From positions 1 through 35,352 of the IMG/VR virus record IMGVR_UViG_3300017593_000537: a DNA stretch of 35,352 bases; one strand, 5' to 3'. Below are positions 1,387 to 23,441 of this stretch, piece by piece. Both the position numbers and the translations under genes were made by a program. The notes under the pieces are model-generated. The model worked only from the letters and a program-made list of their open reading frames with translations. It had not been told where the DNA came from and made no database searches. Positions within the stretch are counted from its first letter, which is position 1; each line of letters opens with the position of its first letter. This DNA comes from a virus.

Positions 1387-2490
1387 GTGCTAAAGCTAAC
1401 CTTTTTAGGCACATCAGCAGGTGTGCCAACCAAACAGCGTAACGTGACGGCGTTGGCGATTGAATGCCTGAATCCTTATTTATCTAAGTCGGGTGATGCC
1501 CAGCAACATAAAAAGTCGCGTCCATGGATATTGATTGACTGCGGCGAAGGTACTCAGCATCAGCTTTTGCACACTAAGCTGTCCATGCATCAGTTGAGCG
1601 CCATTTGTATCACCCATGTGCATGGAGATCATTGCTATGGTCTGCCGGGGTTGCTGGCGAGTGCCGCTATGTTAGGGCGCCTTGAGCCGCTTACCCTCAT
1701 TGCACCAAAATTGATTGCCGCGCTGCTTGATGCCATTGTCTTAACTACTGAATTGTATTTGTCATTTGCGATTGATTTCATAGCAATTGAAGAAGTTCTA
1801 GAGACAAAAGCGGGTAAGGTTGATATCGCTTTAGATTCCCAGCATCAGCTGAGTATTGATATTACGCCATTGTCGCATCGTGTGTCATCTTATGGCTTTG
1901 GCATCACTCAAAATATCCATCGGCTCTCGCTTAACACCAACAAGCTTATGGCAGCCGGTATTCCTGCCAGTAGTTTTTGGGGAAGATTGCAGCAAGGCTT
2001 TGACGTGGTGACTGATGATGGTCAGCAACTGCGTTCAGCAGATTATGTCGATAAAGAGGTGCGGCGTACACGTGTCGTGGTGGCGGGCGATAACGATAGA
2101 CCAGACTGTCTTCGTTCTGCGGTGACGGATGCTGATTTATTGATACATGAAGCCACTTATACGACTGACGTCTTAACTAGGATTCAGTCCAAAAATCCAG
2201 ACTTTGATCCGATGCATAGTAGCGCGCAACTGGTGGGTAAGTTTGCTCAAAATGTCGGCCTCAAGCATTTAATTCTGACGCATTTTAGCGCCCGCTACCA
2301 AAGCTTTGACAATCAGAATAGCAGCACCCCAAACATGGGCCATATCCGTGCAGACGCCGAAAGTTTTTATCAAGGCAGTTTGTGGTTGGCAGCAGACTTT
2401 GATCAGTACATGATCAATGGCGCAAATGACTTGGTAGACAGTAAAGAGACGGACCGCGTAGAGTATTTAGGCTCTGCACGCAGTAACTAG
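1387..2490 (+). CDS. rnz: ribonuclease Z (tRNA 3' processing endonuclease)
   Basis: A 367-residue metallo-beta-lactamase-fold protein of the RNase Z family, which removes 3' trailers from tRNA precursors lacking an encoded CCA. It opens with LTFLGTSAGVPTKQRN, typical of the family, then DCGEGTQHQLL and the zinc-binding motif HVHGDH (about residues 77-82). SHRVSSYGFGI near residue 163, AGDNDRPD near 234 and LTHFSARY near 300 supply the remaining metal ligands. The GDNDRP block is a little longer than the usual GDTRP. Start is GTG 1387 with an AAGAGAAG ribosome binding site. The stop lies 7 bp from the convergent stop of the next gene. Confidence 0.92.
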   Translation: MLKLTFLGTSAGVPTKQRNVTALAIECLNPYLSKSGDAQQHKKSRPWILIDCGEGTQHQLLHTKLSMHQLSAICITHVHGDHCYGLPGLLASAAMLGRLEPLTLIAPKLIAALLDAIVLTTELYLSFAIDFIAIEEVLETKAGKVDIALDSQHQLSIDITPLSHRVSSYGFGITQNIHRLSLNTNKLMAAGIPASSFWGRLQQGFDVVTDDGQQLRSADYVDKEVRRTRVVVAGDNDRPDCLRSAVTDADLLIHEATYTTDVLTRIQSKNPDFDPMHSSAQLVGKFAQNVGLKHLILTHFSARYQSFDNQNSSTPNMGHIRADAESFYQGSLWLAADFDQYMINGANDLVDSKETDRVEYLGSARSN

Positions 2491-2497
2491 ACTCGAT

Positions 2498-3457
2498 TTA
2501 GCGTTTATTGTCTGCAATGGACAGTTGGGTTTTACCGCTCCAATAACGACTAAATTGATAAGCAACTCGTCCTGAGCGGCCACCACGTTCGGACGCCCAA
2601 CGTAGCGCATCGGCCCTGATATTATCAGGCAAACTATTACTTTCCAAATGAGTGACTGTATCAGTCTCGGCCAAGATTTTCTGTTGCTCTAAATTCAGAT
2701 AGTGCTGCACAATCTGTAAATAAGTCTGCTGATCCATGGGGTGAAAAGACAGCCATAACCCAAAACGATCAGACAACGACACGGTCTCATCAACGGTCTC
2801 ATAAGGGTTGACCTCATCGGTCTGACCATTATAAATGTTGATGTTGTCCTTCATCAGTTGAGGGAGTAGGTGACGGCGGTTACTGGTCGCATAGACCAAG
2901 AGTTTGTCTTGCTCCGAATCAAGCGCGCCATCCAAAACGCTTTTTAACGTTCTGTAACTCTCGTCCTGACCGTTAAATGCCAAATCATCGCAGTACACTA
3001 TGTAACGACACCCACTGTCAGCGGGTAGCGCCTTAATTGCTGTACGGATCTTATCAAGTACCTGTAGATCGTCCCGCGCAATCTCAATGATGCGCAGTCC
3101 TTCACTATGATAGGCTTGTAGCAATGCTCGAATCAGCGAGGATTTACCCGCGCCGCGTGTGCCTGTCATCAAAACGTGATTGGCGGGATAGCCTTTTAAA
3201 AATTGGCGCGTGTTCTGTACCAGCTTTGATTTTTGCGTGTCAATACCCTGTAAGTCATCTAAACTTAAAAACAGATTGACCGCTAGAGGCTCTAAATGGC
3301 CGTTGTGACCACCGACCCAGCGATAGGCCAGCTGGGTAGGGTCTATCTCAACCGTTGGTGTGACCTGCTCCTGTAAGTATTGACTGAGTAAATCCAATAA
3401 AGGGCTAGGCAGAGCATAATGAGTAGCAAGCTTAGATGCGTTGATTGGTTGGGACAT
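2498..3457 (-). CDS. DUF815 family P-loop ATPase
   Basis: A 319-residue AAA+-type ATPase of the DUF815 family. Walker A is GTRGAGKSS at about residues 99-107 and the Walker B-like strand is RYIVYCDDLAF near 150-160. A sensor-type ATSNRRHLLPQ segment follows, with the usual DUF815 layout: an N-terminal leader with YRWVGG before the nucleotide-binding core and a C-terminal lid (ALRWASERGGRSGRVAYQF). The role of these proteins is not well defined. The gene is transcribed leftward and faces the kinase-like gene across a short divergent promoter region, ending convergently 7 bp from rnz. Confidence 0.87.
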   Translation of the reverse strand: MSQPINASKLATHYALPSPLLDLLSQYLQEQVTPTVEIDPTQLAYRWVGGHNGHLEPLAVNLFLSLDDLQGIDTQKSKLVQNTRQFLKGYPANHVLMTGTRGAGKSSLIRALLQAYHSEGLRIIEIARDDLQVLDKIRTAIKALPADSGCRYIVYCDDLAFNGQDESYRTLKSVLDGALDSEQDKLLVYATSNRRHLLPQLMKDNINIYNGQTDEVNPYETVDETVSLSDRFGLWLSFHPMDQQTYLQIVQHYLNLEQQKILAETDTVTHLESNSLPDNIRADALRWASERGGRSGRVAYQFSRYWSGKTQLSIADNKR

Positions 3458-3555
3458 AATAACTCTAACAGTTCAGGTTGGTTTTGAAGGGCGTAATCGC
3501 AGTTTTGTTAGGACTTCACCATATTACGAAAAACAGTATCGTGAAAAATCATACC

Positions 3556-4548
3556 ATGAAAAATAATGCCAGTAATCCATCTATTATACAAGCGTTGCAA
3601 GCCCACGCTCAGCAGCTACTGCCGACAATGACGCAAGTATTGATAGCGTTGCAATATAGCGAGATAGCGCATCAACGTTTAGCTCAGCAGAACACCGAAA
3701 CGCGACATCCTAACACTCATTATTATCAGGGCTTAACGCGCGCTATATATCCGCAGTTCGGTAATGTGATGATTAAATGGCAGCTAACTTCTCATGACAG
3801 GGGTTTTTCGTTTGATTTAAATCACGAAGTCGCTATCTTAAAAGCCTTAGATGGTTTATCGAAAACCCAATCAAACGCTATGACTATTGCGCCATCGTTC
3901 CTTGCTTATCACAATGTAGAGGTTCAAGCAGGGAAAGAAAATCAGCAGTTAACGGCTCTCGTCATGCCCCACTATCCAAATGGAAATTTGGCAAAGCAGC
4001 TTACTGCTCAACAGTATGGGTCATTAACCACTAAACAAAAGCATCACTTTATTGTCCAGGCGGCTTATCTTATAGCCAATCTACATCACACTGGCTGGCT
4101 ACACAATGATATTAAACCCAGTAATCTCTTGCTCGCTGACATGCCGATAGGCAGCGCTGACAACAGCGGTAGAGTGCCTGATTTATTATTGACCGATTTT
4201 GCCTTAGCTGAGAGGTTGGATAAACCAAGAAAGGTAAGCGCTGCCGGCACACCAGCGTATCTTGCGCCTGAGCGCTGGCATGGACAGGGTGCAACGGTAC
4301 AGAGTGATATCTATGCGTTTGGCATCATGATGGTTGAGATATTAATGGGCGAGCGACCGTTTAAGATACCTACTCACAGTCGTGATTCAATGAGGGATTG
4401 GGCGACCCAGCACTGTCAGCAGCCTGTGCCAAAATTGCCGTCAGAATATAGCCGTTACCAGTTTATCGTAGATGGTGCATTAGCAAAGCGGGTAGAGAGG
4501 CGGTATAAGAGGATGGAGGCGGTACTGGTCGACTTAGCAGGTTTGTGA
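3556..4548 (+). CDS. serine/threonine protein kinase-like protein
   Basis: An eukaryotic-type kinase fold of about 330 residues. Visible motifs are HNDIKPSNLLL (catalytic loop HxDxKPxN), LTDFALAE at the DFG position (the Gly is Ala), GTPAYLAPERW (APE block), and IYAFGIMMVEILMGERPF (subdomain IX-X). The glycine-rich loop is not obvious; the ATP lysine may be the one in VMIKWQL. Start is uncertain: an open frame reaches back to TTG 3478, with GTG 3541 and ATG 3556 as other candidates and no strong ribosome binding site at any. No membrane segment is present. It is divergent from the DUF815 gene. It is the last chromosomal gene before attL and may phosphorylate an unknown partner. Confidence 0.75.
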   Translation: MKNNASNPSIIQALQAHAQQLLPTMTQVLIALQYSEIAHQRLAQQNTETRHPNTHYYQGLTRAIYPQFGNVMIKWQLTSHDRGFSFDLNHEVAILKALDGLSKTQSNAMTIAPSFLAYHNVEVQAGKENQQLTALVMPHYPNGNLAKQLTAQQYGSLTTKQKHHFIVQAAYLIANLHHTGWLHNDIKPSNLLLADMPIGSADNSGRVPDLLLTDFALAERLDKPRKVSAAGTPAYLAPERWHGQGATVQSDIYAFGIMMVEILMGERPFKIPTHSRDSMRDWATQHCQQPVPKLPSEYSRYQFIVDGALAKRVERRYKRMEAVLVDLAGL

Positions 4549-13903: not shown

Positions 13904-13990
13904 ATGTTAGCAAAACGCTATGTTAGCGTATTGCTATGTTAGTATAATGCTAGTATTGAAGTCAATAGTTTTTACTAGCATAATGCTAGT
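13904..13990. promoter_or_regulatory. four-operator divergent control region between two RHH genes
   Basis: Three head-to-tail 16-bp repeats, each starting ATGTTAG and ending GCT (13904-13919, 13920-13935, 13936-13951), have the inverted core TTAGC-N4-GCTA or close to it. A fourth, near-perfect palindrome, ACTAGCATAATGCTAGT, lies at 13974-13990. The rightward promoter TTGAAG (13956-13961), 17 bp, CATAAT (13979-13984) has its -10 inside operator four; TATAAT at 13943-13948 is inside operator three. On the minus strand TTGACT is read at 13964-13959. RHH dimers bind such palindromes in tandem. Confidence 0.75.
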
Positions 13991-14012
13991 AATGTTTAGT
14001 TGGGTTATTTCT

Positions 14013-14285
14013 ATGAGTACAATTCAGTTTAATTTGCGAGTTCCTAAAGAGCTAAAAGACAAGATAGATAAGGCTTCAGCAGAAAGCGGACGATCTATTA
14101 ACGCTGAGGCTGTCTATCGTATGGAGCGAAGTTTTATTCAAGAAGAGCTGTCCGTTCCTATGAATGTAATGTTCGATGATGATTGGTTTGATGCTACTGG
14201 ATTAACCAAAGAGGAGTTTGGCAGCTTTGTTAAAATGGCTGTGCATAGTGGTGTTTCTAAATATAAGGTAGATAAGGATGGCTGA
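14013..14285 (+). CDS. Mnt-like ribbon-helix-helix repressor
   Basis: 90 residues from ATG 14013; the open frame starts at 13920 but that part is the operator region. The N-terminal ~45 residues (TIQFNLRVPKELKDKIDKAS, then GRSINAEAVYRMERSF) are an Arc/Mnt-type RHH domain. A C-terminal extension (about 50-90) could serve tetramerisation as in P22 Mnt (83 aa). No strong ribosome binding site is visible. Its stop overlaps the start of the lipoprotein gene by 8 bp, so it probably autoregulates the whole rightward accessory operon and may control the divergent operon. Confidence 0.82.
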   Translation: MSTIQFNLRVPKELKDKIDKASAESGRSINAEAVYRMERSFIQEELSVPMNVMFDDDWFDATGLTKEEFGSFVKMAVHSGVSKYKVDKDG

Positions 14286-14652
14286 TTTGAAAAAAGGATT
14301 TTTGCTTGGATTAGTTGCGCTAGTATTGGTTGGCTGTGGTGACCTTGAACCTCAATCTGAGGTTGTAGCAGACAATGAACGCGCAGTAAGCCGTGACACT
14401 TATGAGGGGGATTGGCCATTCACTGCTGATAGCGGTACGTTGGGCTGCATTGATAAGGCGGCTTATTTTGATGCTGGCAATGAAACTTATGCGCTAAGCG
14501 GCTTTAGTCGTGCTTATTCTGATAGTAAAGGGCTTGGTTGGCTGCCAGTTGACCCTGAGCAGACCTTTTGGTTGGACAATCCTGATATTGCAGGGGCAAA
14601 GATTAGTGTTGGTAATATGACTTCTGATGCCTTAAAGCTTTGTGATAAGTAA
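14278..14652 (+). CDS. lipoprotein with DUF2511-like domain
   Basis: 124 residues. MADLKKGFLLGLVALVLVGC is a signal peptide with lipobox LVGC; Cys20 would be acylated. The mature part reads WPFTADSGTLGC, then ...YALSGFS..., WLDNPDIAGAKISVG and a final ALKLCDK, with Cys pairs likely to form a disulfide; this order matches what I recall of the DUF2511 family, of unknown function. Start overlaps the Mnt-like gene's end. As a phage-encoded envelope lipoprotein expressed from a lysogenic promoter, a superinfection-exclusion or lysogenic-conversion role is plausible but unproven. Confidence 0.72.
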   Translation: MADLKKGFLLGLVALVLVGCGDLEPQSEVVADNERAVSRDTYEGDWPFTADSGTLGCIDKAAYFDAGNETYALSGFSRAYSDSKGLGWLPVDPEQTFWLDNPDIAGAKISVGNMTSDALKLCDK

Positions 14653-14664
14653 AGGGGATAAGCA

Positions 14665-15186
14665 GTGATTTATGTTTTTTGGTTTATCGTCTTTGTTGTG
14701 ATTTTTAATTTATGGCTTAAATATACTAAGAGCGGCAGACGCTACAATGAAAAATTAGAGGCAGACACGGCTGCCCGTAAACAGGTCAAATTAGATAAAA
14801 AACAGGCCAAACTAGACAGAGAACGATTATCTTTACAACCACAACATGATAATTCGCCAACATCGTCAGCTAACACTAATTCTCAGTATAATCGCAGCCG
14901 TTACAGTTATGACGGCTTTGAAGATACGTCAGATGACACAACCATCTATCCGATGACGCATTGCATGACTTATACCAATCGAGATGGCATTTCTAGCACT
15001 CGTGATATTGGAATGGTTCGCGCCTATCGTCGTAGTAAACGTTGGTATATCGATGCGTATTGTTATCAGCGCGGTGAAGTCAGAACTTTTGCTGTTGAGA
15101 ATATATCCAAACTAGAAGACTTCATTGAGGGTAATACTTATACTGCAAATAATATGATTCGTGAACATATCAAGTCTTATGAGTAA
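14665..15186 (+). CDS. membrane-anchored WYL-domain-like protein
   Basis: 173 residues from GTG 14665 (AAAGGGGAT upstream). Residues 3-19 are a membrane anchor (VFWFIVFVVIFNLWL), about 25-58 a highly charged helix, 59-90 a Ser/Asn-rich linker, and about 95-160 a compact domain with YTNRDGISSTRDIGMV, RRSKRWYIDAYC and RTFAVENI. The last blocks match the WYL fold (WYxxAxC...RxFxxxxI). WYL domains are usually ligand sensors of DNA-binding regulators; a membrane-tethered one without an HTH is unusual. It is the last gene of the accessory operon and ends 1 bp from the convergent D gene. Confidence 0.68.
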   Translation: MIYVFWFIVFVVIFNLWLKYTKSGRRYNEKLEADTAARKQVKLDKKQAKLDRERLSLQPQHDNSPTSSANTNSQYNRSRYSYDGFEDTSDDTTIYPMTHCMTYTNRDGISSTRDIGMVRAYRRSKRWYIDAYCYQRGEVRTFAVENISKLEDFIEGNTYTANNMIREHIKSYE

Positions 15187-19212: not shown

Positions 19213-19664
19213 TCATTCATCAGGGTTATTACGGATACGCGCTCGTTCGCGCCAATCGGCAAGCTCTTCGATCGTCATGTGATACATCGCCTCTGGTGTC
19301 CAGCCGAACACCAAGGCGATGTCTGCCATACAGTCTTCTACGCGGTTGGGATAGCTGCGGTTTCTGCTTGCAACTGATGTTTCGCCTTGGTAAAAAAACT
19401 GGCAATAGTTAACCCCACATCCATCAAATCAGCGGCATCCATGTTTTTGACTTCATGCTCATGGATAACTGGGTTACTGATACGAGGGAGTACTACGGCT
19501 AGGGCATCGACTTTGGCCATTGAAATGTCAATCAGTGATTGGCCACGCAAGTCGCCGCCCATTGGACGACGCAGGGTAAATTCTTTAATCTCTTTTTGCT
19601 TGTCGCCAGTACCGCGAATGATAGGGTAGTCTAGTTCGATAGTTGGCATATCATTATTGTTCAT
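19213..19664 (-). CDS. E': gpE+E' tail assembly chaperone made by -1 frameshift
   Basis: A -1 shift at the seven-T run (19392-19398) after about 91 codons of E continues in the overlapping frame to TGA at 19213-19215, adding 59 residues that start YQGETSVASRNRSYPN. This tail contains MADIALVFGWTPEAMYHMTI and EELADWRERARI, the signature of the P2 GpE family, so the coding potential is certain. The product is about 150 residues (P2 E+E' is 142). Both forms are assembly factors that coat the tape measure. It is a joined reading frame, listed apart from E. Confidence 0.85.
19338..19664 (-). CDS. E: tail assembly protein gpE (unshifted product)
   Basis: 108 residues, P2 gpE-like: MNNNDMPTIELDYPIIRGTG, then EFTLRRPMGGDLRGQSLIDI, typical of phage tail assembly chaperones of the E/gp41 type. 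Without frameshifting, translation passes the T run and ends 17 codons later. Its ratio to E+E' normally matters for tail assembly. Located between FII and T as in P2. Confidence 0.92.
   Translation of the reverse strand: MNNNDMPTIELDYPIIRGTGDKQKEIKEFTLRRPMGGDLRGQSLIDISMAKVDALAVVLPRISNPVIHEHEVKNMDAADLMDVGLTIASFFTKAKHQLQAETAAIPTA
19392..19398 (-). promoter_or_regulatory. -1 ribosomal frameshift site T TTT TTT in gene E
   Basis: In the zero frame the codons are AGT TTT TTT ACC, giving the heptamer T TTT TTT. A -1 slip continues as TAC CAA GGC and opens the conserved E' frame. P2 uses T TTT TTG at the same place. Confidence 0.85.
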
Positions 19665-19746: not shown

Positions 19747-20274
19747 TTAGAACGTAGTGAATAGTCCCATTGCTTCACGGATCTCTTTTAGGCGGTCTTC
19801 ACCATTGACGATACACTTCATCGCCATGGCATCAATCTCAATGATGTCTTCACCGTCTACGACCAGCCTGTAATACGCCAATGAATACTTGAACGACTCT
19901 TCTGTGTCGTCACCTAGCTTGGCGCTACCAGGGTCGATCTCTTCTAAGCGACCACGGCAATAGATATCGACAGCCGACACACTGCAGTCATCATCACGCT
20001 GATACGCACCTGAATACGACAAGACGACCTTATCAATACCAGCACGCGCAAAGTCGCGGTACAAATCTGCTTCGTGACCACCGCATTTGATGGTCATCTC
20101 CATGGCTTCTTGGCCCAAGTCGACCTTGACCGGCATATCCATACCACCAGCACGATACTCTTCGAGTACGCGAGTCAGTTTGGGCAGCTCAATCTCTGGG
20201 ATCTGACCTTGATAGCGTTTTTGGTTACCAAGGCCTTTGTAAGCCATGAAGTTCTTTAATTTACGAGGTAACAT
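19747..20274 (-). CDS. FII: tail tube protein (P2 gpFII-like)
   Basis: 175 residues (P2 FII is 172). MLPRKLKNFMAYKGLGNQ and KLTRVLEEYRAGGMDMPV are characteristic of the phage major tail tube family. The tube is the inner channel around which the sheath (FI) contracts. It lies 39 bp after the C-terminal half of the sheath gene, so it belongs to the same unit. Confidence 0.95.
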   Translation of the reverse strand: MLPRKLKNFMAYKGLGNQKRYQGQIPEIELPKLTRVLEEYRAGGMDMPVKVDLGQEAMEMTIKCGGHEADLYRDFARAGIDKVVLSYSGAYQRDDDCSVSAVDIYCRGRLEEIDPGSAKLGDDTEESFKYSLAYYRLVVDGEDIIEIDAMAMKCIVNGEDRLKEIREAMGLFTTF

Positions 20275-20313: not shown

Positions 20314-20913
20314 TTAGGCCGCTGCTGCTACCAAGTCGGCAAAGTTGACCAGGTATGTATCTGTGATCGTCTGATTTAGGTTAAGGTTCTCTAAGTTAGG
20401 AACTGGGGTAAAGTCATAATCTAGATACAGCTTGCCTTGCATGAGCAGCGTTTCGCTGTTTAGCTCGGTGTTGTACCAGCATTTTGCACCGATTAAATAG
20501 CCGAAATTGACCATCTCCTGCAGCTTGGCATTGATGGCACGAATGATGTCACGGACAGTCGTTGGCGATAGCGGCTGATCGATGAACTGAAAGCAGCCAT
20601 TGATGATCGTATCGAGCAAAAACTGCGAGGTACGCACGACCGGCTCAAACATATACTCAGGCTTATCAGAGCAGGTATGACTGCCCCAAAAGCGAAAGCC
20701 ATTGTGTTGAATGAGGCTGGTCACGTCATTGGCGTTTAGATAGCCGACTTCAGTATCAGGATCTTCTAGATCCCAGGTACGTGGATATTTGATACCACTA
20801 ACAGTATCAATGGCGACGTTGGACAGCGACTTGACAAAGCTATACTGGTGCGTCTTGTCTAAATGAGCGCGTAATGCTGCGGCCACGGCGATGATTGGGG
20901 TTACTTGGGTCAT
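20314..20913 (-). CDS. FI: tail sheath protein, C-terminal half (split FI)
   Basis: 199 residues that align with the second half of P2 gpFI: SFVKSLSNVAIDTVSGIKYP, then NGFRFWGSHTCSD, SPTTVRDIIRAINAKLQEMV, and KLYLDYDFTPVPNLENLNL. It contains the domain that carries the C-terminal arm linking neighbouring subunits in contractile sheaths. ATG 20913 has AAGGA 6 nt upstream, so it is translated on its own. It starts at MTQVTPIIAVAAALRAHLDK, just where the N-half breaks off, so little or no sheath sequence is lost. Whether the halves assemble into a working sheath is open. Confidence 0.9.
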   Translation of the reverse strand: MTQVTPIIAVAAALRAHLDKTHQYSFVKSLSNVAIDTVSGIKYPRTWDLEDPDTEVGYLNANDVTSLIQHNGFRFWGSHTCSDKPEYMFEPVVRTSQFLLDTIINGCFQFIDQPLSPTTVRDIIRAINAKLQEMVNFGYLIGAKCWYNTELNSETLLMQGKLYLDYDFTPVPNLENLNLNQTITDTYLVNFADLVAAAA

Positions 20914-20944
20914 GGTGCTTCCTTATTTTATTAAAACCTACTTA

Positions 20945-21871
20945 TCAGACTGTGATTCTAGGTAGTATGCGTATGTATGAACCTGCCGTTCCTAAGGAGT
21001 ATGTCGATAAAGACTCTCCCAAAACTCTGACTTTCGTTGCATCCGATAAATCCACATTAAACGTAAAGTCCATATTGTGTGTCGCGGTATTTGTATTTTT
21101 AAAAACAACAGAATTTTCGGTAAATGTCAAAGTACCAAAAGTATAGGCGTTAGTTCCGGATTGATTAGCTTTAGTTAGATTCAATGAATCAGTTCCATAC
21201 CATAATCCCGAGCTACGAGTCTTATCTTTAGCGCTAAGTAATGTAAACAACACGTTATCTAACTCATCGAGTATCTCAAATCTCATAGTATGGCTATCGT
21301 TATCTGACGCAGAATTTCTACCATACACAAGTAACTCCCAATCAATGTCGAACATATCTATGGTTTTTATTTTTTCGCTTGTAGATAGTGGTTGTACATT
21401 ATCGGAATAAACATAGTCAAATAACCCTATATCCTTAGTGTTGCCAAAGTATTCTAACCAAGTAGGAGAAGTTGTGTTAGTAACGTCAAATTTATCTTGG
21501 TATCCGTAAGGGCTTGCGAAAGATATGAGTAGGAAGCCTGTTTCTCTATTGGAAGTAACTATTTCGCTTGCATTGCTGATCGGTGATTCAGCATAACCAT
21601 CGTTATCAACAAACGAAGCTCTGACGGTAATAACTTTGCCCACCTCAGCCGATTTAAGCACATAGGTTTTAATGATGGCACCTGATATTGCTACACTATC
21701 AGCGTACCACTGATAATCCACGTTCGTAGGTACGCCGTTTGCGTCTGTGACAATAGCGGTTAGTATTTCCCCGACTTTAGCTGTGCCAATAATTGTTACA
21801 TTGGCAGGATTGTTCACTGGTGAAGGCGTAACAATCGGCGGGGTTGCTACTTTCCCGCTGGAACGCCCCAT
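20945..21871 (-). CDS. Ig-like / beta-rich ORF inserted in the sheath gene, probable -1 frameshift extension
   Basis: 308 codons between the two sheath halves. After a Pro/Thr/Asn linker (ATPPIVTPSPVNNPAN) comes an Ig-like domain (about 27-105) with GTAKVGEILTAIVTDANGV, YQWYADSVAISGA and VGKVITVRASFVDNDG. A ~200-residue beta-rich part follows, with no family I recognise, perhaps a carbohydrate-binding fold. ATG 21871 lies inside the N-half gene with no ribosome binding site, so the likely entry is the -1 slip at 21850-21856, which adds residues from Val8 on. Ig-like domains are known decorations of phage virions, some added by frameshifting. The stretch looks AT-richer than its neighbours, suggesting a separate origin. 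Confidence 0.75.
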   Translation of the reverse strand: MGRSSGKVATPPIVTPSPVNNPANVTIIGTAKVGEILTAIVTDANGVPTNVDYQWYADSVAISGAIIKTYVLKSAEVGKVITVRASFVDNDGYAESPISNASEIVTSNRETGFLLISFASPYGYQDKFDVTNTTSPTWLEYFGNTKDIGLFDYVYSDNVQPLSTSEKIKTIDMFDIDWELLVYGRNSASDNDSHTMRFEILDELDNVLFTLLSAKDKTRSSGLWYGTDSLNLTKANQSGTNAYTFGTLTFTENSVVFKNTNTATHNMDFTFNVDLSDATKVRVLGESLSTYSLGTAGSYIRILPRITV

Positions 21872-22401
21872 TCGCCTTCAATCAACATCAACTCGCGCGC
21901 GGCGAACGTATCGCGATAAGCGGCAATATCTTCTTTGACCGTAATCAACGCACCGTCTTCAGCTCGCGGTGAGGCATATACAAATGCGCGGCGTTTTTTG
22001 GCGATCTCAATAAGCTTACGTGTCATATCTGGCGTATCAATTTCAGGCGCAATTAAAATCTTAGGCGTAACGCCAAGGCGAGATTGGCAGCTAAGCAATG
22101 TATCAACGGTAGCGATATCGACAGGCTCTGACAGTCGTAATACGACTACGCTTGTGTTTTGGATAGACTTAATTGTCTGCAAGCATTGACTGAGCAAAGT
22201 ATCTTTAGCGCCAGCTTTGGTGACATCATCTGTCGTGATGCCTGTCAGCAATACAGGGGTATCAAGCGGGTATTTAGCATCATCAGCATCAATACTGGTG
22301 CTCACCAGTGCTATCGTGCTCGTGCTGACGGACTTGATGATTGGCGTGATATTACTGGTCTCAGTAGCAGTGACACCGTGATGGTAAGTAGTTAATGCCA
22401 T
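21847..22401 (-). CDS. FI: tail sheath protein, N-terminal half (split FI)
   Basis: 184 residues matching the first half of P2 gpFI: YHHGVTATETSNITPIIKSV, PLDTPVLLTGITTDDVTKAG, GVTPKILIAPEIDTPDM, RAFVYASP and AAYRDTFAARELMLIEGEW. In P2 the frame runs on without a break; here it meets TAG at 21847-21849 right after the heptamer GGGAAAG. It carries the N-terminal arm of the sheath mesh. The gene starts the FI-FII-E-T-U-D block, 38 bp after the fibre gene. Confidence 0.9.
   Translation of the reverse strand: MALTTYHHGVTATETSNITPIIKSVSTSTIALVSTSIDADDAKYPLDTPVLLTGITTDDVTKAGAKDTLLSQCLQTIKSIQNTSVVVLRLSEPVDIATVDTLLSCQSRLGVTPKILIAPEIDTPDMTRKLIEIAKKRRAFVYASPRAEDGALITVKEDIAAYRDTFAARELMLIEGEWGVPAGK
21850..21856 (-). 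promoter_or_regulatory. -1 ribosomal frameshift heptamer G GGA AAG before UAG
   Basis: The zero-frame codons are GCG GGA AAG TAG. The heptamer G GGA AAG is the one used by lambda G-GT and is in the right phase. A -1 slip reads GGG AAA GTA GCA and enters the Ig-like frame. Downstream, GATTGTT and AACAATC (spacing 15 nt) can form a stem starting 13 nt after the heptamer, and GGGG lies 10 nt upstream like a stimulatory Shine-Dalgarno. Confidence 0.7.
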
Positions 22402-22439: not shown

Positions 22440-23441
22440 TTAAGCAGTACGTAACCACTTGCCGACCACTTTTGATGGCTGAATGTTATTGTGCGGCTGG
22501 TCGCCACCTGCCTCATCTATGTAACCAGTCTCATAGGTACCCGTGGTATCGACAGCTCTATCAGTTTCCTGTGAATCATCATGAGCAATTTTGGTTCTAG
22601 TGGATATGCCCAACGTATGACCGTGACTTGCCGACTCTTCAATCGTCAGCGTGTGCTCGTTTTCACCAAACTCATTGCCGATAGTTTTATAGTCGCTAGG
22701 ATCGCTTGCTTTTTTAGATAGTCCGACTAGCGTACGACCTTCCGCAAATCGCTCCCATGTACCATAGCCATGATGGGTCGCGACAGCAGACGCGTCTGAA
22801 TGATTGAGGGTTGTCTGGTAAATATCACCAACTTTATATGGCTGTAAATCTAAAAGTCCCGCGATGCCTTCCTCTATCTCGTCTATACGATCTGACAGTA
22901 ATTGAAACTGGGTAGCCATAAGCTCATCCTGTAATTGATTGATAATATCGTGTAGTTCACTCACTAAAGATTTCAAAGCAAAGCGGTCGGTAACCCAATC
23001 GCGAGTAGCGACGATCACATTGCCGTCCATTTCGATAACGACAGTCGCGAGGTTATCCGCAGTAATCGTAAATATAAGCTCCATGTCACCACCAGCGCCT
23101 TCAGTGAGCGTTGGGCGATAGCCGCCATGGAAGTTGCCCACATAGACAAGCTTGCCGCTACTATCTGCAATCCCAACTTCATGTAAGTTAAAGCCACCCA
23201 CATTGGACGGTACAACGGCAGATACTTCAGCCGTCGTGTCATTGACGATCTTGATAGAGGTTACGGCTACTTTTGCTCTTTGATGTACCAGGCTGGTCTC
23301 TGTTAAACGTGAATCAGGTAGATATGGCTGATCATTAGCATCACCTAATACCACATCCGTTAAGGCAAGTTGTGAACCAGCTTGGGCATTGGCAATAAAT
23401 GACTTGCCATAGTCAGTGAGTAATACATAGTAGTTGGCCAT
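22440..23441 (-). CDS. H: tail fibre protein (P2 gpH-like N-terminus, collar-type tip)
   Basis: 333 residues. The N-terminal ~155 are the DUF3751 tail-collar fibre domain that attaches to gpI (YYVLLTDYGKSFIANAQAGS, VGGFNLHEVGIADSSGKLVY). A short coiled coil follows (about 160-190), then a phage tail-collar type tip: YGTWERFAEGRTLVG, ESASHGHTL, and GGDQPHNNIQPS at the end, with His motifs that may bind metal as in T4 gp12. It is half the length of P2 H (669), and no fibre chaperone G follows. It should recognise the host receptor. Confidence 0.87.
   Translation of the reverse strand: MANYYVLLTDYGKSFIANAQAGSQLALTDVVLGDANDQPYLPDSRLTETSLVHQRAKVAVTSIKIVNDTTAEVSAVVPSNVGGFNLHEVGIADSSGKLVYVGNFHGGYRPTLTEGAGGDMELIFTITADNLATVVIEMDGNVIVATRDWVTDRFALKSLVSELHDIINQLQDELMATQFQLLSDRIDEIEEGIAGLLDLQPYKVGDIYQTTLNHSDASAVATHHGYGTWERFAEGRTLVGLSKKASDPSDYKTIGNEFGENEHTLTIEESASHGHTLGISTRTKIAHDDSQETDRAVDTTGTYETGYIDEAGGDQPHNNIQPSKVVGKWLRTA

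Follow-up and report, generated by a model that had tools for sequence, protein, structure and literature searches.

A P2-like prophage tail sheath gene split around exchangeable cassettes, with a putative -1 frameshift site at the break

The sheath locus

The IMG/VR record IMGVR_UViG_3300017593_000537, analysed here over a stretch of 35,352 nt that we refer to as the window, is a P2-like (Peduoviridae-type) prophage. It carries genes for integrase, portal, terminase, capsid, baseplate, fibre, sheath and tube, and host-type genes are found at its left end. Where a P2-type phage has one FI sheath gene, the window has an N-half and a C-half in separate reading frames, with a third long frame between them (Table 1). 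The gene order baseplate, fibre, sheath, tube is that of P2-type phages, and no second sheath gene was found in the window, which makes the split gene its sole sheath gene.

Table 1 Features of the split sheath locus, in positions of the window.
Feature	Position	Strand	Basis and remarks
Tail-collar fibre gene, gene H position, directly upstream of the N-chain	22440..23441	(-)	PF12571 E 6e-28, PF21939 E 1e-18
Sheath N-chain (bare form, 184 aa)	21847..22401	(-)	TAG at 21847-21849; phrog_23 tail sheath E 6e-22
Slippery heptamer G_GGA_AAG (-1), directly before the N-chain stop	21850..21856	(-)	X_XXY_YYZ phase; N-chain ends GCG GGA AAG TAG
-1 frame extension, 301 codons	20948..21850	(-)	Stop at 20945-20947; Pro/Thr linker, Ig-like domain, then beta-rich domain
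Pair of predicted RNA hairpins 3' of the slip site	21784..21836	(-)	21836-21808 and 21806-21784; z -3.4
Ig-like domain in the extension, approximate limits	21557..21811	(-)	Alignments with relatives; PHROG matches
C-chain Shine-Dalgarno AAGGAAG	20918..20924	(-)	Upstream of the C-chain ATG
Sheath C-chain (199 aa)	20314..20913	(-)	Phage_sheath_1C PF17482 E 1e-12; phrog_23 E 2e-62
Tail tube FII, next gene downstream of the C-chain	19747..20274	(-)	PF04985 E 8e-53

When the halves were compared as profiles with the R2 pyocin sheath, the N-half matched residues 2-182 and the C-half residues 209-382 (E 8e-31), and in these coordinates only a loop of ~26 residues is lost between them. The predicted model of the N-half from a relative matched the pyocin sheath structure 6u5b with a Z of 14.2 and an rmsd of 3.2 over 154 residues. 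Homology to both conserved blocks of a P2-type FI sheath is thus present, while the single polypeptide is not, as there are two open reading frames in the split clade and one in other P2-like relatives.

The frame between the halves, referred to as the Ig ORF (21871..20945 on the (-) strand, 308 codons), is in the -1 frame relative to the N-half, and a -1 slip on the heptamer would enter it and give a predicted product of 184+301 = 485 aa. An in-phase G_GGA_AAG occurs only once in the 9053 codons of long ORFs in the window, where GGA accounts for 11% of the Gly codons. Both in the window (where it is that of the Ig ORF) and in the related locus L002 there is an ATG 8 codons before the N-chain stop, preceded by an AAGG 3 nt upstream, which is a poor spacing. 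A sequence-only reading had described the three open reading frames with their frames, the phase and stop context of the heptamer and a ribosome binding site for the C-half, all of which held in full. Its statement that the halves cover the sheath family with almost no loss held too, and the entry of a -1 slip into the Ig frame held as a sequence feature. Its statement that the Ig ATG has no ribosome binding site held only partly, given the poorly spaced AAGG.

Two further features of the window were noted. At 19392-19398 (-), near the end of gpE, there is a T_TTT_TTT in phase with a -1 ORF beyond it, of the P2 E/E+E' type, making this a second likely -1 site. Between the tail and replication genes, at 13920-15186 on the opposite (+) strand, are genes for an Arc-like DNA-binding protein, a DUF2511 protein and a WYL-domain protein.

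The split is a family trait

Relatives were collected by searches with the C-half, which gave 205 classifiable loci, 61 of them split (some contigs being repeated), 141 intact and 3 cut off. In the 141 intact loci the conserved blocks are spaced by 40-82 nt. Between split halves the insert ranges from none to 3 kb, and the relative frame of the N- and C-halves varies such that all three possibilities are seen, the two being in the same frame in the window. In a tree of 75 C-blocks all 39 de-replicated split rows fall on one side of a single branch (SH-aLRT 94), showing that the split arose once on this tree.

The named hosts of split relatives are exclusively Psychrobacter, Moraxella or Acinetobacter. 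A screen of 349 genomes from the host family revealed 19 with high-scoring split-type N-halves, at 21 places, while other N-half matches were mostly to ORFs of intact length. The high-scoring loci that were retrieved for inspection were all split, whatever their cassette mode. Several Acinetobacter prophages of other lineages have an intact sheath, as does Burkholderia phage FLC10, the sole DNA-level match among phages, which was therefore rejected as a split relative.

It is clear from the dN/dS ratios that purifying selection acts on the N-chain (0.07-0.25), on the C-chain (0.02-0.13) and on the cassettes between them (0.07-0.22). In L022, L034 and L059, and likewise in L251, the halves are adjacent with no insert, which we read as a sign that a bare two-chain sheath is viable. 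We also observed a single-chain sheath of 521 aa from the same host family (L259, 713-2275, reverse complement) that has a beta-rich insert, in frame, in the loop where the split family is broken, which suggests that the loop tolerates added domains; this sheath could possibly serve as a model of the state before the split.

The slippery heptamer and the -1 frame

Long out-of-frame cassettes were found in the -1 frame in 19 of 19 de-replicated loci and never in the +1 frame. All 19 have an in-phase G_GGA_AAG or G_GGG_GAG at the end of the N-chain, compared with 2 of the 16 loci with an in-frame cassette or none (Fisher p=5e-8). The cassette mode has changed at least 10 times over the tree. A tree-corrected sign test of the heptamer against the -1 mode gave 4.2 with and 0 against (p about 0.125); the 5 supported independent pairs are too few for significance to be reachable, and they point in the same direction as the association.

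The nucleotides themselves are conserved. The slip codons GGA AAG do not vary across 13 divergent N-half loci. The codon in front of them (for Ala, Pro, Leu or Met) has G as its third base in every case. A single codon is kept at only 3 of the 33 invariant degenerate N-half residues of these loci, and two of the three are the slip codons, which shows that they are under constraint at the nucleotide level. The X_XXY_YYZ pairing is strictly fulfilled by G_GGA_AAG, which is highly shift-prone in E. coli according to a review (PMC5009743), whereas G_GGG_GAG gives good re-pairing in the P site only. The heptamer is kept in L012, L014 and L046 despite a -1 frame that is open for just 22-29 codons.

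RNA folding downstream of the slip site exceeds the background over the family, with a mean z of -1.9 against -0.3 in the rest of the loci (p=2e-5). Clear hairpins are found in most of the G_GGG_GAG loci and in L008, L046 and L057; several G_GGA_AAG loci, L007, L013 and L027 among them, have a weak structure or none. The hairpin following the heptamer in L046 is a strong one (z -4.5).

Taking these observations together with the split itself, we consider it likely that a programmed -1 frameshift tags the N-chain in many members of the family and, jointly with this, that the N-chain and the separately initiated C-chain make up one sheath protomer. Slippage and its rate are inferred from the sequence, as is the assembly of the two chains, and there are no reporter or protein data for either. 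A comparison of the sizes of -1 and in-frame extensions gave no support for a dosage argument (p=0.16), as only the upper range differs (up to 646 vs 213 aa).

Some in-frame fusions retain the G_GGA_AAG (L006/L053, L065 and L253). In these a -1 slip would meet a stop within 1-7 codons and release a bare chain, i.e. the polarity would be reversed.

Cassettes are replaced as units between the heptamer and the C-chain start

Comparison of the window with L002 gives near identity through GGGAAAG, after which identity drops from 100% to 35% in the first 20-nt block and to 15% in the second, and returns at 90% or more from the ATG of the C-half. L007 and L013 show the reverse pattern, where the N-half has ~60-85% identity and the sequence from the heptamer into the cassette is mostly at 90% or more. 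Since identity breaks at the heptamer and at the C-chain start in these pairs, the two sites bound a replaceable unit, which has passed between phages with its breakpoints exactly there.

The PHROG matches of the cassette in the window (E 3e-7 to 4e-3) include Hoc-like and major-tail Ig families, with no fold support (model pLDDT 37). Its Ig part shares 61-62% identity with those of the L005 and L052 extensions, and its beta-rich part could be assigned to no family. No close relatives of the complete Ig/beta extension were found in viral contigs, the matches to phages were weak Ig matches only, and a sequence search of solved structures with the extension gave no match. An AlphaFold prediction of the N-chain with its in-frame extension from L053 folded only the N-half.

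In the relatives the contents of the cassette vary. The Ig domain is combined with phrog_20912/2889 domains in L005 and L052, and the latter occur without Ig in L057. L016, L037, L043 and L032 have BspA-type leucine-rich repeats (LRR_5), and the cassette of L256 is laminin-G-like. In L002, L003, L007, L013 and L015 the cassette consists of about five repeats of a ~25-aa unit, with a weak tail-fibre PHROG match in L002, and is followed by two genes that match tail-fibre PHROGs (E 9e-45 and 1e-40). The same two fibre genes follow a protein with about four short C-terminal repeats (judged by eye) in Stenotrophomonas phage Paxi and Xanthomonas phage SB1, and the order of the anchor and the two fibre genes is that seen in Schitoviridae and Autographiviridae phages. 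We infer that in loci with the repeat cassette the slipped sheath chain would anchor a transplanted fibre system.

The extension is fused in frame to the N-chain in 13 related loci. L032, L039 and L042 (1686-4549) have two successive N-halves with different in-frame extensions, one of them LRR, and a single C-half; possibly, two kinds of N-chain share one C-chain here. In L017 (3509-4558) the extra domain is joined to the N-terminus of the C-half rather than to the N-half. Separate ORFs also occur between the halves, namely a GDSL hydrolase in L046 and glycosyltransferase-like ORFs in L008 and L253. The one in L253 has no Pfam match and was called by eye from its similarity to L008; together with a GalE-like epimerase it occupies 2173-3692 (-) between the halves, and the displayed domain may be glycosylated in this case.

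Alternative explanations

The main surviving rival for the Ig product is that ribosomes reinitiate close to or at the N-chain stop and make the -1 ORF product as a protein of its own, in which case the split would be real and the fusion would not. In its favour are the ATG and AAGG described above for the window and L002, the ATG in L256 located 3 codons after the N-chain stop, and the next ORF in L017, which begins right after that stop. Against it, most -1 ORFs lack an ATG or GTG with a Shine-Dalgarno-like site near their beginning. The first start is 96 codons in for L052, the first ATG 119 codons in for L005, and L008 has no ATG at all. Reinitiation also leaves the invariance of GGA AAG unexplained, and the in-frame fusions in the 13 related loci speak against it. 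We find this explanation unlikely.

A second rival, which we likewise find unlikely, is that the break is merely a tolerated integration site for morons, where tagging of the N-chain is incidental and the cassettes act elsewhere, e.g. as free enzymes or lysogenic-conversion proteins. The independent ORFs among the inserts (the GDSL hydrolase of L046 and the glycosyltransferase-like and GalE-like ORFs of L253) are as expected from this. In most loci, however, the N-chain is joined to the first ORF of the cassette, in frame or through a -1 slip, and the cassettes look like adhesion parts of virions (Ig, LRR, and the fibre anchor with its two fibre genes).

Prophage decay, where a random insertion and a stop have broken the sheath gene, draws support only from the window being a prophage with host genes at its ends. 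It is practically ruled out by the split being common to the whole clade and conserved across many species, by purifying selection on both halves and the cassettes, by the retained C-chain Shine-Dalgarno in the group of the window and by the constraint on the slip codons. The sequence-only reading had argued against simple decay, which held. It had named as a refutation close relatives with an uninterrupted sheath in which the stretch is a recent random insertion, and the opposite was found, the closest relatives also being split and the cassettes being replaced exactly at the heptamer; the conservation of the heptamer that it asked for was confirmed. Its two-chain sheath with optional decoration is supported on the level of sequence, and for particles and the frameshift product there are no protein data. 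The Ig case from which it started is one example of a family-wide architecture, and Ig one cassette among many.

Finally, the halves might be rejoined to a single chain through an intron, an intein, ribosome bypass or a double frameshift, to which the agreement of the N and C frames in the window could point. This can be set aside with near certainty, as all three relative frames occur across loci, the inserts vary in length from none to 3 kb, no match to an intron family was obtained, and the C-chain starts at an ATG of its own, in most cases with a Shine-Dalgarno.

Relation to known systems

We found no earlier description of a split phage sheath in the open-access literature that was searched, including the relevant passages of PMC9230969, and a description elsewhere is not ruled out. 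Compared with P2 gpFI and the R-type pyocin sheath (PF17482, phrog_23), both halves are homologous and lie in the same gene order beside the FII tube, but these sheaths are one chain, where the split family has two chains with a cassette site in the loop. Among classified genomes of Peduoviridae, Bracchivirus U2F1 (MF417929) has the same split sheath; its annotation gives one sheath and two hypothetical proteins, and the split and the recoding went unrecognised.

A contractile sheath made from two proteins is known from type VI secretion, where TssB/TssC (VipA/VipB) form the sheath (PMC9230969). The split family resembles this in having two gene products that jointly cover one sheath fold, with the assembly inferred. 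TssB/TssC chains were absent from the solved-structure sequence matches of either half and from the listed fold matches, which is weak evidence. As the searches gave no TssB/TssC match for the N-half or the C-half, the likeness is probably convergent, and membership of the split phage sheath in that group is not supported. To our knowledge, neither exchange cassettes nor recoding occur in TssB/TssC.

Ig-like extensions added by frameshifting have been reviewed for capsid and tail-tube proteins of phage T3, Lactobacillus phage A2 and Listeria phages A118, A500 and PSA (PMC5009743). Like the extensions proposed here they are sub-stoichiometric, often Ig-like, and added to a virion protein by -1 or +1 slippage. 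In the split family, by contrast, the target would be one chain of the sheath, and the tags can be exchanged and include domains other than Ig. A study of 155 sheath proteins reported phage sheaths of a single chain that bear additional Ig-like domains (PMC9230969). These type 2/3 sheath proteins share beta-rich or Ig-like domains with the split family, as does L259 with its insert at the same loop, but they are single chains with the domain in frame and on every subunit. The frameshifts of lambda G/GT and P2 E/E+E' make tail assembly proteins. They are relevant here in that G_GGA_AAG is a known efficient -1 site and P2-like phages already recode a tail gene; the product in the split family would differ in being a structural display product.

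Proposed mechanism and its implications

The explanation that we favour for the locus as a whole, and regard as likely, is a two-chain sheath that uses its break for display, with the dose set by frameshifting. The slippage and its rate, the two-chain assembly, the surface exposure and the role in adsorption are all inferred. In this model the break sits in a loop between two conserved sheath blocks and would act as a plug-in site for display cassettes. The majority of ribosomes would terminate after the N-chain to give the bare subunit, and a fraction would slip -1 on G_GGA_AAG and add the cassette, which in the window is the 301-aa Ig-like and beta-rich module. Tagged N-chains would then be sub-stoichiometric and carry a surface domain, and in the relatives the displayed part would be a different adhesin-like domain or the anchor of receptor-binding fibres. 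Such tags may well give the tail additional adsorption to the host surface along its length.

A bolder reading, which in our judgement could equally well be right or wrong, is that the sheath is a modular display platform, permanently two-chain, where adhesin and fibre cassettes standing along the tail are dosed by a conserved slip site, perhaps of either polarity. A slip would add the tag where the cassette is in the -1 frame, and would release the bare chain where it is in frame (L006, L065 and L253).

If the favoured explanation is true, these phages provide a two-chain sheath outside type VI secretion, and with it a second case for asking why contractile sheaths split, as well as a contractile machine with a naturally dosed site for display, for which many cassettes already exist. 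Such prophages are easily overlooked, as in one annotated example where the sheath was named in one half only, next to hypothetical proteins. The finding suggests that some phages bear parts for host recognition along the tail sheath in addition to those at the baseplate.
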